Positions 2,457 to 32,604 of a stretch of DNA of 33,833 bases are shown piece by piece. The first letter of the stretch is position 1. Each line of letters starts with the position of its first letter. Origin of the DNA: a virus; the IMG/VR virus record IMGVR_UViG_3300030012_004195, positions 1-33,833 of that record; one strand, given 5' to 3'. The position numbers and the translations under genes are program-made. The notes under the pieces are model-generated. The model did not search any database. It was not told the origin of the DNA and saw only the letters and a program-made list of their open reading frames with translations.

Positions 2457-2465
2457 CTATTTATA
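2457..2465 (-). promoter_or_regulatory. T4-like late promoter box
   Basis: TATAAATAG on the minus strand, with the ATG of the membrane-anchored gene (2434) about 22 bases further on and a ribosome binding site between. It lies back to back with the + strand tmRNA promoter at 2475-2503. Intergenic location and spacing fit a late promoter; the short box alone would not be convincing. Confidence 0.55.
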
Positions 2466-2474
2466 AAAAAAAGG

Positions 2475-2503
2475 TGTACAAATGTAAAATTATGTGGTAT
2501 AAT
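2475..2503 (+). promoter_or_regulatory. Sigma70-like promoter of the tmRNA gene
   Basis: TGTACA (2475-2480), 17 bp, TATAAT (2498-2503), with TGTGG immediately before the -10 box. It matches the promoter family found throughout this window. The predicted start near 2510 is about 20 bases before the acceptor piece of the permuted tmRNA. Confidence 0.85.
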
Positions 2504-2509
2504 ATATAC

Positions 2510-2778
2510 TATATAACGATGAAGCAAAGTGAATGGTTCACTGGACTCGGGGGCGGTACCCGACAGCTCCACCAAAAACATTCGATTATCGCGAGTAGTT
2601 TTGATGGGGCTGAAATAGGATCGACAGGTTCAATAGCGATGTGGAGTTATCCGGATGTAAGCTCGGTTAATGCGAACAAAACTCTAAATGCAAACGATAA
2701 TTTTGCACCTCAGGAGTTCGCTCAAGCAGCGTAATTCCTATGCGCTTGGAGAGAGCGTGGAAACAGAATCTCACCACT
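2510..2778 (+). ncRNA. ssrA: Circularly permuted (two-piece) tmRNA
   Basis: The gene order is inverted relative to a one-piece tmRNA. First comes the acceptor piece, with CACTGGACTC, a GGGGGCGGTACCC T-arm-like segment and the mature end CAGCTCCACCA (2564-2574). A spacer of about 31 bases follows (2575-2605). Then the coding piece begins GGGGCTGAAATAGGATCGAC (from 2606). GGGGCTG pairs with CAGCTCC over 7 bp, and the third pair is G-U, the alanyl-tRNA synthetase identity element. The tag frame lies at 2672-2734. Permuted ssrA genes with processing of the spacer are known from alphaproteobacteria and some cyanobacteria; the tag is of alphaproteobacterial type. The outer boundaries are approximate. 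It would rescue stalled ribosomes together with host SmpB. Confidence 0.93.
2672..2734 (+). other. tmRNA tag-peptide reading frame
   Basis: Starting at the GCG resume codon, the tag reads ANKTLNANDNFAPQEFAQAA and ends at TAA 2732-2734. ANDNFA is a hallmark of alphaproteobacterial tags. The tag is longer than the usual 10-15 residues and ends in QAA where most tags end in LAA or VAA, the ClpXP recognition end. The exact resume codon is inferred from the alanine convention. Confidence 0.88.
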
Positions 2779-2799: not shown

Positions 2800-3033
2800 A
2801 TGTCTAAAAATGCATACGAGATTCGTCTCGAAACTTTAAGAATGGCCAAAGAAATGGCCGACTCAAAATACTGTTTACAACAAGATATCATGTATAGAAT
2901 GATAGACCAAGCTGTAGAAAAGCGTGAAGATATTGAAAAAGCTATACGCGCACATGCACCGCTTATGTATCGTCCTAGTGATATTATTGAAAAAGCAAAT
3001 GAGCTTTATCAGTATGTAAGCGAAAAGCAATAG
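2800..3033 (+). CDS. Hypothetical helical phage protein
   Basis: 77 residues, almost entirely predicted helix and rich in Lys, Glu and Ala (ETLRMAKEMADSKYCLQQDI). A canonical AGGAGG lies seven bases before the ATG. It follows the tmRNA at about 20 bases with no terminator between, so it may be transcribed from the tmRNA promoter. Related short proteins occur in T4-like marine phages as far as I recall; no function is known to me. Confidence 0.75.
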   Translation: MSKNAYEIRLETLRMAKEMADSKYCLQQDIMYRMIDQAVEKREDIEKAIRAHAPLMYRPSDIIEKANELYQYVSEKQ

Positions 3034-3041
3034 GAGCATTT

Positions 3042-3254
3042 ATGGCCGAAGAAAAGAAAAACGGTATCGTTGTAAAGAACGAACACAATGAGTTTGAATT
3101 AGCACTCAGATTTTTAGGTAATGAACTTATCGCAATCAAGATGGCTGCAACAAACTTTAGTGGTAAACTTATAGTATGGAGTATCTTATTACTCTTATTT
3201 AGTTTCATGTTGTTGGAAGTCTTCGGCCTCTCCGCATACTTTGGAGTCCACTAA
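3042..3254 (+). CDS. Small single-pass membrane protein
   Basis: 70 residues. A soluble, charged N-terminal half (MAEEKKNGIVVKNEHNEFEL) is followed by a hydrophobic segment at about residues 44-66 (LIVWSILLLLFSFMLLEVFG). AGGAG precedes the ATG. The arrangement fits an inner-membrane protein with a cytoplasmic head. It may be lysis- or entry-related, but there is no specific signature. Confidence 0.7.
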   Translation: MAEEKKNGIVVKNEHNEFELALRFLGNELIAIKMAATNFSGKLIVWSILLLLFSFMLLEVFGLSAYFGVH

Positions 3255-3356: not shown

Positions 3357-3844
3357 TTACAGAAATAAACATTTCTTTTGATAAGCAAAAAGTTATAGAT
3401 GAAATAAACACTCTTGACTTACAACCTGGTCATTCTAATAATTGGTGGAGAGCTAGAACAGAAGAAAGCAAAAGATTTTGGTATAAAACAGATACATGGT
3501 TAAAAACTATTATTGAAGATACTAGCAACTTACCAGAAATTTCACGGTTAAATTCTATCTTTAAATGTGATATTATATATGTTTACAAGCAGCTTGCTAA
3601 TTCTAATCTGCCAAAACATAGAGACTACGATATTATAACAGCAATTAATATGTTGTTATCAGACGAAGTTGCGCCGATTACTTTTGATCATGGTGATGAA
3701 TATTATAAAAATGCATTAATAGATGTTTCACAAAAACATAGCGTAAAGCCTTATCCAAAAGATAGATTATTATTAAAGTTTGCTTGGCATAAAAAAACGT
3801 TTAAAGAAATAAAAAATGAATTAAGAGAAAAATGTTTAATTTAA
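3353..3844 (+). CDS. Probable 2OG-Fe(II) oxygenase (prolyl-hydroxylase-like fold)
   Basis: 163 residues from TTG 3353. The C-terminal half carries the facial triad pattern: H89-R-D91 (LPKHRDYD), a beta segment AINMLLSDEVAPITF, then H129 (SQKHSVKP) and R138 (KDRLLLKF) as the likely 2-oxoglutarate-binding arginine. This order and spacing resemble small double-stranded beta-helix dioxygenases seen in marine phages. Substrate unknown. No in-frame ATG precedes the motif, and TTG overlaps the preceding stop, so coupled translation is likely. It overlaps the desaturase gene by 13 bases. Confidence 0.7.
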   Translation: MITEINISFDKQKVIDEINTLDLQPGHSNNWWRARTEESKRFWYKTDTWLKTIIEDTSNLPEISRLNSIFKCDIIYVYKQLANSNLPKHRDYDIITAINMLLSDEVAPITFDHGDEYYKNALIDVSQKHSVKPYPKDRLLLKFAWHKKTFKEIKNELREKCLI

Positions 3845-4545
3845 AAACAACATATAAATTGTTAATCAATCACAGTTTATGTCATATTGCGTTAGTGTAT
3901 GGCATATTTTATGGTACTTGGTGGATGTGGATAGCAGGGTTTGCATGGTATTATTTTATTACTATCGCTTCATCAAGTGCAGGTTATCACAGGTTCTATT
4001 CACACGAAGCTTTTAAGGCTGGTAAGTGGTTTGAATACTTTACAAATATACTAAGTTTATTCATAGGTTCAGGTCCGTATTTGACAAGAGCTGCGATACA
4101 TAGACAGCATCATGCATACTCTGATACTGATAAGGATCCGCAGTCACCTACACACTACGGATTTTGGCGAATATATTTTAACTTATGGGGATTAGAACAA
4201 AAAATTGAAAGAAAGTTTTTTAAAGGACTTATTAACAACAAGATACTTAAGTTTTGGCATGATCATTATTTTAAGATGGTTGCAGTGCTAGTTGTAACGT
4301 TATTTGCAATTGATCCATTGTTGTTAGTATTTGCATATGCGTTACCGTGTGTATTGAGTTCACATCTATTTGGATTATTTAACGCATACTTACACAAAAC
4401 TGGTGAGGCAACTAACAACACTTTGATCAATCTTTTTACTGCAGGTGAAGGGTATCATAAAGCACATCACGACAATTCTAAGAAATTAAGACACGGTCCA
4501 ATAGATCCTACATATTTCTTTATAAAATTAATACGGAGTACGTAA
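3832..4545 (+). CDS. Fatty acid desaturase (acyl-CoA delta-9 type)
   Basis: 237 residues with the three histidine boxes of the membrane desaturase family: H53-RFYS-H58, H90-RQ-HH (93-94) and H209-KA-HH (212-213), plus NAYLHK before the last box. Hydrophobic segments at about 18-50, 68-85 and 150-180 fit a four-helix membrane enzyme with a di-iron centre. It would introduce a cis double bond into fatty acyl chains, changing host membrane fluidity. The size is shorter than cellular enzymes (about 300 residues) but all boxes are intact. It overlaps oxygenase genes on both sides and so belongs to one operon. Confidence 0.93.
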   Translation: MFNLKTTYKLLINHSLCHIALVYGIFYGTWWMWIAGFAWYYFITIASSSAGYHRFYSHEAFKAGKWFEYFTNILSLFIGSGPYLTRAAIHRQHHAYSDTDKDPQSPTHYGFWRIYFNLWGLEQKIERKFFKGLINNKILKFWHDHYFKMVAVLVVTLFAIDPLLLVFAYALPCVLSSHLFGLFNAYLHKTGEATNNTLINLFTAGEGYHKAHHDNSKKLRHGPIDPTYFFIKLIRST

Positions 4546-7658: not shown

Positions 7659-7821
7659 TGGTAATCCTCATTAATTGATATAATCTCTGTCTTAATTCTT
7701 CTATCTTTCTCTTATAATCGTGCATGTAGTCTCTTACAATCACTTTCTGTTCACTTGTCTTAGTCCTCATACTACTAAAATCTAACTTCTTCATCGGTTT
7801 CTGCTTAGTATTATATCCCAT
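7645..7821 (-). CDS. Small basic coiled-coil protein
   Basis: 58 residues, starting MGYNTKQKPM. The C-terminal part (VIVRDYMHDYKRKIEELRQR) is a charged amphipathic helix. A purine-rich GAAGAAG precedes the start by about nine bases. It overlaps genes on both sides in different frames, which is normal for this operon. The family is not recognised. Confidence 0.55.
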   Translation of the reverse strand: MGYNTKQKPMKKLDFSSMRTKTSEQKVIVRDYMHDYKRKIEELRQRLYQLMRITNEAK

Positions 7822-7964
7822 AAACTTAACTTCTTCTTTCTATATGTGTAATCTCTATTAAAACATCTATAATTAAACCAACTATAGTATATACTACTTA
7901 TACGTCCGTATGTAGGGGCAATGTCATGATAGTATTCTTTCCAGTCTCTGAAAGAACTCCTCAT
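7791..7964 (-). CDS. Small Tyr/Arg-rich protein, first gene of minus-strand arm
   Basis: 57 residues beginning MRSSFRDWKEYYHDIAPTYG, rich in Tyr, Arg and aromatic residues and with a basic C-terminus. The ribosome binding site is poor, so the start is uncertain. It lies about 40 bases downstream of a plausible minus-strand promoter (8006-8034) and overlaps the next gene by 31 bases. No homologue recognised. Confidence 0.5.
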   Translation of the reverse strand: MRSSFRDWKEYYHDIAPTYGRISSIYYSWFNYRCFNRDYTYRKKKLSLWDIILSRNR

Positions 7965-10519: not shown

Positions 10520-10695
10520 AATTAAAATTTGCAAGATGTCACTTTACAGATGATTATGTTAAGATATTAACTTACTTAGGTAACGGTTATTATGCCGTAC
10601 GTTATCCTGATAACACAACTCAAGAAGCACACGAATCAACTCTTGATTTCGATGGTGCTGTTAATATAGAATTTCCAACATGGAGTAAAGCATGA
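10516..10695 (+). CDS. Small hypothetical protein, SH3-like appearance
   Basis: 59 residues starting MKLKFARCHFTDDYVKILTY. Alternating strands (VKILTYLGNGYYAVRYPDN, EAHESTLDFDGAVNIEF) give the look of a small beta-barrel. Ribosome binding site AGGGAGGA. Its stop overlaps the next ATG. Not recognised further. Confidence 0.65.
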   Translation: MKLKFARCHFTDDYVKILTYLGNGYYAVRYPDNTTQEAHESTLDFDGAVNIEFPTWSKA

Positions 10696-10829
10696 AGAAA
10701 AAACAATATCATCATTGGGTCTATATGGCCGACGATAGTATGAATAAAGTCTTAAAGACAGTTGTGTACTGTCTCTTTGGCTACGGTTTTTATGTAACAG
10801 CGATAGAAATTTATGCAAAATTTTTTTAA
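10692..10829 (+). CDS. Small single-pass membrane protein
   Basis: 45 residues beginning MKKKQYHHWV. Residues 23-42 (TVVYCLFGYGFYVTAIEIYA) are a membrane span. ATGA overlap with the upstream gene; the stop lies in the A/T-rich run that precedes the next promoter. No function assigned. Confidence 0.6.
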   Translation: MKKKQYHHWVYMADDSMNKVLKTVVYCLFGYGFYVTAIEIYAKFF

Positions 10830-31719: not shown

Positions 31720-32604
31720 ATGTCATTTCAAACACTTAAACGCAATCGCGGTTCTAATATCAACAAAATTATTAAGGCAGCAGAATCAGCCGGCAGTGGC
31801 GAGACTAAGTCATATGTTGATGATAGAATATGGAAACCAACAGTAGATAAAGCAGGTAATGGTTATGCCGTTATCAGATTCCTTCCTGGTACGGAAGAGA
31901 ATCTTCCTTTTGTAAGATATTGGGATCATGGTTTTAAAGGTCCTACTGGCTTATGGTATATCGAAAACTCACTTACTTCAATTGGTCAAAACGATCCAGT
32001 TGGTGAATTGAATTCTAAGTTATGGAATTCTGGTATTGAGTCAGATAAAGAAAAAGCTAGAACTCAAAAAAGAAGACTACATTACGTAACTAATATCTAT
32101 GTTGTTAGTGATCCTTCAGCACCGCAAAACGAAGGTAAGGTATTCTTATATAAGTTTGGTAAGAAGATATTTGATAAGATTTATGATCTTATGAATCCTG
32201 ACTTTGCAGATGAAACTCCAGTAGATCCATTTGATTTCTGGGAAGGTGCAGATTTTAAACTTAAAATTAGAAATGTAGAAGGTTATAGAAACTATGATAA
32301 ATCTGAGTTTGCTTCACCAGCAGCTTTATTAGGTGCAGACGAAGCTAAGTTAGAAGACGTCTATAATAAACTACACGACTTATCTGAGTTTACTAATCCT
32401 AAGAATTATAAGTCATATGATGAACTTAAAACTAAGTTAATGAGAGTTCTTGGTGAGGAGGCAACAGCTGGTGCCTATACAGTAAAAGAAGAAGTAAAGA
32501 TAAATCAACCAATCGCGGCTGTTGAGCCAGTCACTGCAGAAGAAATAAGTAGTGAAGATGAAGATACATTATCTTATTTTTCTAAACTTGCAAAGCAAGA
32601 CTAA
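31720..32604 (+). CDS. 32: gp32-like single-stranded-DNA-binding protein
   Basis: 294 residues. The basic N-terminus SFQTLKRNRGSNINKIIKAA serves cooperative binding; the OB-fold core includes YAVIRFLPGTEENLPFVRYW, HGFKGPTGLWYIENSLTSIG and RLHYVTNIYVVSDPSAPQNE followed by GKVFLYKFGKKIFDKI. The C-terminus is acidic (AEEISSEDEDTLSYFSKLAK). The cysteine ligands of the T4 zinc site are absent: the expected C-x9-C-x2-C region reads ENSLTSIGQNDPVGELN. It coats DNA during replication, recombination and repair. AAGGAG ribosome binding site; convergent with the next gene with a four-base overlap. Confidence 0.95.
   Translation: MSFQTLKRNRGSNINKIIKAAESAGSGETKSYVDDRIWKPTVDKAGNGYAVIRFLPGTEENLPFVRYWDHGFKGPTGLWYIENSLTSIGQNDPVGELNSKLWNSGIESDKEKARTQKRRLHYVTNIYVVSDPSAPQNEGKVFLYKFGKKIFDKIYDLMNPDFADETPVDPFDFWEGADFKLKIRNVEGYRNYDKSEFASPAALLGADEAKLEDVYNKLHDLSEFTNPKNYKSYDELKTKLMRVLGEEATAGAYTVKEEVKINQPIAAVEPVTAEEISSEDEDTLSYFSKLAKQD

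Follow-up and report, generated by a model that had tools for sequence, protein, structure and literature searches.

The locus examined here raises the question of whether a two-piece tmRNA gene read from a virus record of 33,833 bases (the whole stretch analysed, hereafter the window) is a working gene of the phage. A circularly permuted tmRNA of the alphaproteobacterial type had been proposed, and models, covariation and gene context confirmed it at 2505–2778 on the plus strand. Both pieces were found in the place and order proposed: cmscan against Rfam matched the full alpha_tmRNA model (RF01849) at 2458–2778 (+) with 134.2 bits (E 1e-36; cut-off 50) and tmRNA_permuted (RF04321) at 2513–2734 with 117.7 bits (E 1.3e-22; cut-off 47), both scores exceeding the gathering threshold, and ARAGORN called a tmRNA* at 2478–2825 with the tag ANDNFAPQEFAQAA. 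As the initial annotation had it, the sequence reads from the acceptor with its CCA through a spacer to the mature 5′ end (Table 1). The 7-bp acceptor pairing with the G3–U70 pair was likewise borne out, all seven pairs forming in the window, and a 5-bp T-stem, an alanine resume codon and a tag ending in Ala-Ala (...AQAA) were found as further features of the class. A tag frame is indeed present downstream, but it starts at the resume codon GCA at 2690 rather than immediately behind the mature 5′ end. Cofolding of the two mature pieces, with a model that cannot represent pseudoknots, gave −10.6 kcal/mol compared with a mean of −6.84 for shuffles, 26 of 200 of which were at or below the observed value, so that the pairing did not differ significantly from chance.

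Table 1. Features of the tmRNA locus and of related elements in the window
Feature	Position	Strand	Basis or remark
Glutamine riboswitch RF01739	1152–1104	−	Rfam; 26 nt before 34-aa ORF
34-aa arginine-rich basic ORF MTYRPFSWKRFCQARDRARVHRILNYRLRYFQAA	1077–973	−	Shine–Dalgarno AGGGAGGG
Divergent 160-aa gene, PHROG 32327 (unknown)	1952–2434	−	Marks conserved locus
Sigma-70-like extended −10 promoter, TGTACA-17-TATAAT with TG	2475–2503	+	10/12 matches; just 5′ of acceptor piece
Acceptor (3′) piece of tmRNA	2505–2574	+	Sequence reading, Rfam; RF04321 match starts at 2513
T-stem TCGGG/CCCGA	2547–2551/2559–2563	+	5 bp, read from sequence
T-loop GGCGGTA	2552–2558	+	Read from sequence
Acceptor 3′ strand CAGCTCC	2564–2570	+	Read from sequence
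Encoded ACCA	2571–2574	+	CCA ends at 2574
Spacer, 31 nt, predicted hairpin, without ORF	2575–2605	+	Fold; end-stem covariation
Coding (5′) piece of tmRNA: acceptor strand, tag frame, 3′ pseudoknot-like segment	2606–2778	+	3′ end approximate (Rfam match end)
Acceptor 5′ strand GGGGCTG	2606–2612	+	Read from sequence
Tag frame ANDNFAPQEFAQAA	2690–2734	+	Resume codon GCA 2690–2692, stop TAA 2732–2734
77-aa ORF	2800–3033	+	AGGAGG Shine–Dalgarno; directly 3′ of tmRNA
70-aa ORF, next gene	3042–3254	+	Near tmRNA in several relatives
ORF	3832–4545	+	3′ of tmRNA; homologues near tmRNA in 14/229 loci among the matches listed
Free-standing 57-aa gene	7791–7964	−	Homologue inside tmRNA spacer of L172
Free-standing 45-aa gene	10692–10829	+	Homologues inside tmRNA spacers of L129 and L139

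Judged from its genes, the phage is T4-like, a context that had been claimed and that models, covariation and gene context support. ORF 31720–32604 is a T4-like gp32 that matches Kyanoviridae single-strand binding proteins over 100% of its length, with 58.0% identity to Phage C48C1 and 56.6% to Melnitz. A tmRNA was present in 18 of the 21 phage records searched, those in which it was not found being C48C1, Roseobacter phage CRP-9 and S-CAM8. No SmpB gene was seen by eye in the window's ORF list, and the gene must therefore rely on host SmpB.

The surroundings of the tmRNA are conserved on both sides. Eleven relatives have a homologue of the divergent 160-aa gene 145–306 nt 5′ of the tmRNA, and a homologue of the 77-aa ORF, which is probably co-transcribed with the tmRNA, follows the mature 5′ end by 197–201 nt in six relatives, the same distance as in the window. 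This ORF has a weak match to PHROG 2733 (E 0.004); its assignment as a gp33 coactivator, suggested by a position as in Melnitz, was rejected, as searches gave no support. The position just 3′ of the tmRNA is taken by a tRNA gene in L221 and L029. The ORF at 3832–4545 (+) we take to be fatty-acid-desaturase-like from its histidine motifs. On the 5′ side, the TATAAT core of the putative promoter is kept in the alignment of relatives that retain the upstream region, while promoter-like sites as a class showed no clear excess over shuffles.

When the DNA was compared directly with phage records, no match covered 80% of the query, and relatives were therefore drawn from two viral pattern scans, which gave at least 120 and at least 119 stretches. 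The view that phage tmRNAs are uncommon and a two-piece one notable was thus weaker than stated, the more so as 53 of 133 unique phage tmRNAs are two-piece, 50 of these 53 being marine or aquatic, according to the accessible text of PMC9004378. Among the matches listed, we examined 238 viral sequences (the window, loci L002–L234 and four phage-record loci), 229 of which had the acceptor and T-arm geometry within 450 nt; the nine misses were L361–L364, which are stretches of records retrieved because of other genes, and the scan loci L035, L066, L071, L109 and L185. An apparent loss of the acceptor piece from L139, L172 and L129 (none within 140 nt) was rejected, since the piece lies 160 nt upstream.

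In these 229 listed loci the acceptor paired 7/7 in 228 and the T-stem 5/5 in 228, totals that are biased upward by the script's requirement for at least six acceptor pairs; this bias does not extend to the variety of pair types. Acceptor pairs 5 and 6 change in a compensated fashion: pair 5 was C–G in 134 loci, G–C in 73, U–A in 20 and A–U in one, with one mismatch, and pair 6 was U–A in 130, C–G in 82, G–C in 14, A–U in two and U–G in one. The first scan forced U70, whereas the second did not demand it, and among its listed matches G3–U70 was found in 107 of 108 loci. A further compensated pair was seen by eye in the 3′ segment, with CGC/GCG in the window, L017 and L195 compared with AGC/GCT in L190, L129 and L172. 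In 14 aligned sequences the tag residues are kept, and codons 2, 4, 8, 11, 13 and 14 vary synonymously.

The window thus holds a permuted gene with all the elements of an alphaproteobacterial tmRNA, conserved and covarying in a syntenic phage locus. Because of this covariation, the conserved promoter and the synteny, the locus is very probably a working phage ssrA gene. Such a gene would be transcribed from the sigma-70-like promoter, probably early, and its transcript would fold so that the acceptor stem is closed and the spacer forms a hairpin. RNase P would be expected to cut at 2605/2606 and host nucleases to trim to the CCA at 2574, leaving two pieces held together by base pairing. Host alanyl-tRNA synthetase would charge the tmRNA through G3–U70, and with host SmpB it would enter ribosomes that have stalled on broken mRNAs (expected to abound in takeover), add (A)ANDNFAPQEFAQAA and free the ribosome for phage mRNA; the tagged proteins would end in AANDNFAPQEFAQAA.

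The same observations bear on whether the locus is instead a host ssrA copy that imprecise excision or recombination brought in, now dispensable and either a passenger or in decay. The window tmRNA is diverged, since its 134 bits lie below the scores of most chromosomal alphaproteobacterial genes (mostly 160–312 bits, a few lower), and by eye one pair of its 3′ stem is broken (GGAGAGA/TCTCACC, compared with TCTCTCC in L017 and L195), as would suit a decaying copy; acquisition through a prophage is also raised in the available portion of PMC9004378. The compensated pairs, however, together with a tag most of whose codons change synonymously only, a conserved promoter core and a place fixed across related contigs, argue against decay, which we regard as improbable. 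It is far harder to credit that the stretch is host chromosomal DNA, or an element integrated at a host ssrA used as attachment site, and that the gene does not belong to the phage. Although integration often takes place at tmRNA genes (PMC11915505, accessible part), the genes on both flanks are common to other viral contigs, the same 33.8-kb record contains the T4-like gp32 that matches Kyanoviridae phages over its full length (100%), and the tmRNA gene is complete with its own promoter; the synteny in substance refutes this reading.

If the locus is a working phage gene, its tag may still differ in effect from that of its bacterial counterparts. A comparison with alphaproteobacterial ssrA tags had been suggested, and the ANDN-type tag and resume codon GCA proved common to both, whereas the QAA end is rare in bacteria. 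Tags could be read by script in 191 of 234 viral loci among the matches listed, and 12 of these 191, all within the window's group, end in QAA; the 145 viral ARAGORN calls among the listed matches comprised LAA (113), MAA (9), QAA (7), IAA (7) and a few others. In the 14 aligned members the Q codon is invariably CAA in the 12 with QAA and is replaced by CTA (L) in L129 and L180, with neighbouring codons varying synonymously. QAA was found in none of the 105 ARAGORN-called bacterial loci (126 given, 21 not called), and a pattern search of 385 alphaproteobacterial genomes found it in two (ANDNYAPVAQAA and ANDNFAPVAQAA), compared with 104 when the pattern was set to (L/F)AA. Rare as it is, QAA thus also exists outside phages, and its reading as a phage-only degron change was rejected on account of the two bacterial genomes.

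The QAA end could nevertheless mean weak proteolysis, and an altered degron in the QAA group is possible. As a variant of the working gene and not an alternative identity, the locus might encode a rescue RNA whose degron is weakened, with the ANDNFA start kept and QAA in place of LAA, ribosomes being freed and tagged products spared ClpXP. The confinement of QAA to the window's group among the listed viral tags, the invariant CAA amid varying codons and the zero count in the ARAGORN-called bacterial loci favour this variant, but the two alphaproteobacterial genomes with QAA and the LAA of the close relatives L129 and L180 speak against it, and we consider it unlikely.

The spacer between the two pieces varies greatly in length. 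In a survey covering acceptor-to-5′-end distances up to 450 nt, viral spacers among the matches listed measured 7–410 nt (median 32) and exceeded 100 nt in 37 of 229 loci, whereas those of the resolved bacterial sample had a median of 28.5 and reached 100 nt in 4 of 84. In Sinorhizobium phage Phosso (L004, 1468–2070) an unannotated permuted tmRNA has a 410-nt spacer with no clear ORF in it. The ends of the spacer pair with each other: over eight columns, 0.90 of cells were paired in 92 distinct viral spacer-end pairs among the matches listed (from 159 spacers of at least 28 nt, register taken as the best of 28), compared with a mean of 0.69 and a maximum of 0.72 when 3′ ends were dealt to other spacers, the high control value reflecting a shared consensus. 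Since this pairing exceeds the control, we read the spacer as a stem capped by an unconstrained loop. The window spacer is predicted to form a short hairpin in a slightly shifted register. Spacers would accordingly act as a structural stem that tolerates loops of differing length: a bare hairpin of 31 nt in the window phage, and in relatives a loop apparently occupied by small protein genes.

It is these spacer genes that most merit follow-up. The 37 long viral spacers among the matches listed form 20 clusters, in 11 of which the longest ORF exceeded 95% of 300 shuffles; in the other 9 of the 20 it was not above shuffles. Spacer ORFs occur in L129, L139, L168, L182, L201, L126, L127, L172, L176 and others, and at approximately 2574–2718 of the Melnitz locus (L369), whose spacer of ~145 nt starts with TAAACACTT and ends with AAGTGTTTATGAT and whose ORF starts with MFKWLSKTRLVV after a Shine–Dalgarno-like GGAGAAG. 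Evidence was restricted to codons inside the spacer and to pN/pS; the ending of ORFs at +13 of the tmRNA was rejected as evidence, because the tmRNA sequence itself has a stop there. Pairwise pN/pS was 0.21 for L129/L139, 0.34 for L168/L201, 0.24 for L126/L127 and 0.04–0.09 among L127, L130 and L159, ratios by which several spacer ORFs in relatives are under purifying selection. Against the PHROG library, neither the nine spacer peptides searched nor the riboswitch peptide described below had a confident match.

Several of these genes also occur outside spacers. The gene of L129 and L139 has homologues in the window and in the L172 contig, there outside its tmRNA, and matched 3 of 14 contigs searched with one copy each. 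For the L172 gene, homologues without stops are present in the window (7964–7791, −) and three other contigs; 5 of 14 records match, a total that includes the contig of L172 itself and one frame interrupted by stops. The L168 family corresponds to Melnitz gene 85, just 5′ of the Melnitz tmRNA, and the L126/L127 family lies 5′ of the acceptor in L208 and L146. We tentatively propose, while thinking it somewhat likelier to fail than to hold, that the spacer of permuted phage tmRNAs, closed by its conserved stem, acts as a cargo loop that single-copy small phage genes move into and out of. When loaded, processing of the precursor would release (or destroy) a tiny mRNA and couple small-protein expression to tmRNA maturation; the window phage would be unloaded, with two such genes kept elsewhere. 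If true, protein genes nested between tmRNA halves would be a novel way of arranging genes. We found no report of spacer protein genes in the literature, which is no proof of absence: the accessible text of PMC9004378 has no occurrence of 'nested' or 'within the ssrA', and that of PMC11915505 describes intervening sequences as harbouring a single tRNA gene and a single repetitive element, with no mention of protein genes. The predicted 23-aa ORF of Sinorhizobium, as given in the available part of PMC10117765, overlaps the tag, its start codon proving irrelevant, and is not a spacer gene.

A glutamine riboswitch lies in the same region of the window. In all six aptamers examined (the window and five relatives) a homologue of the 34-aa ORF follows at 25–26 nt, while the orientation of the riboswitch and its distance from the tmRNA vary among relatives; in Melnitz the aptamer lies 3′ of the tmRNA and 5′ of a 32-aa ORF with nine basic residues. 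Control of the tmRNA by the riboswitch, proposed for Melnitz, fails in the window, because the aptamer heads the peptide on the strand opposite the tmRNA (riboswitch −, tmRNA +), unlike the Melnitz arrangement. Since the peptide homologue follows each of the six aptamers and the place relative to the tmRNA varies, the riboswitch of these phages most likely serves the small basic peptide and not the tmRNA, a correction that we suggest. The same aptamer occurs in cyanobacteria, where it controls IF17, an inhibitor of glutamine synthetase, as well as small DUF4278 proteins (PMC6316151, accessible part); a similar role for the phage peptide would be a guess by analogy.

The tmRNA had also been called the best host clue in the window, which stands only loosely. 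The pattern CTCCACCA, 15–45 nt, GGGGCTGAAATAGGATYGAC, searched in one genome per species across 84,980 bacterial and archaeal species, was found in only 16 stretches, mostly from Planktomarina and other marine Rhodobacteraceae and mostly with the tag ANDNKAPMALAA. The T-loop was GGC(G/A)GT(A/G) in 83 of the 84 resolved bacterial loci (of 126) and TGCGATA in one. A second tmRNA gene of 129 bits was seen besides the 302-bit one in Labrenzia sp. OB1 (L355, ~2820–3155), on a 19.5-kb contig that is possibly a prophage or plasmid and with the odd tag VADNDNDWVAAKAVA. From its GGCGGTA loop and the marine Rhodobacteraceae matches, the window tmRNA appears nearer to Roseobacter-type genes than to that of the SAR11 phage HTVC008M, which has TGCAATA. 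According to the available text of PMC9004378, however, Melnitz has an alphaproteobacterial-type tmRNA and yet an OM43 host, a disagreement that limits the tmRNA as a host clue; as a host call it is weak.

Permuted phage tmRNA genes are already known, Melnitz and other marine phages carrying one in the accessible account of PMC9004378, and the window gene is one more well-supported case in this class. Like the window phage, the Kyanoviridae phage Melnitz (MZ577097) combines a permuted alphaproteobacterial-type tmRNA with a nearby glutamine riboswitch, but its tag differs, its ~145-nt spacer holds an ORF where the window has 31 nt, and its riboswitch lies 3′ of the tmRNA on the same strand and not 1.3 kb away on the other. 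HTVC008M (NC_020484), a related marine T4-like SAR11/Pelagibacter phage, also has a permuted tmRNA (145161–145370; L002 4121–4462; 90.6 bits), which lacks annotation in its record and is of a different subtype, with T-loop TGCAATA and tag ANFNEYALAA. The best DNA matches among phage records were the GGGG-type alphaproteobacterial tmRNAs of the Roseobacter/Ruegeria phages DSS3P8, vB_RpoS-V10 and DSS3_MAL1, covering only ~20% of the query; the DSS3_MAL1 tag is ANTNAAPMEMAIAA, and just 5′ of that tmRNA (L003, 895–1358) lies a GOLLD RNA (RF02032, 160.5 bits) that encloses a tRNA-Arg. With the bacterial permuted tmRNAs (RF01849; two-piece in Caulobacter) the window gene shares gene order, acceptor, T-arm, G3–U70, the GGCGGTA loop, the resume codon GCA and an ANDN-type tag, and it differs from typical members in its roughly halved model score, shorter 3′ domain, QAA end and phage context.
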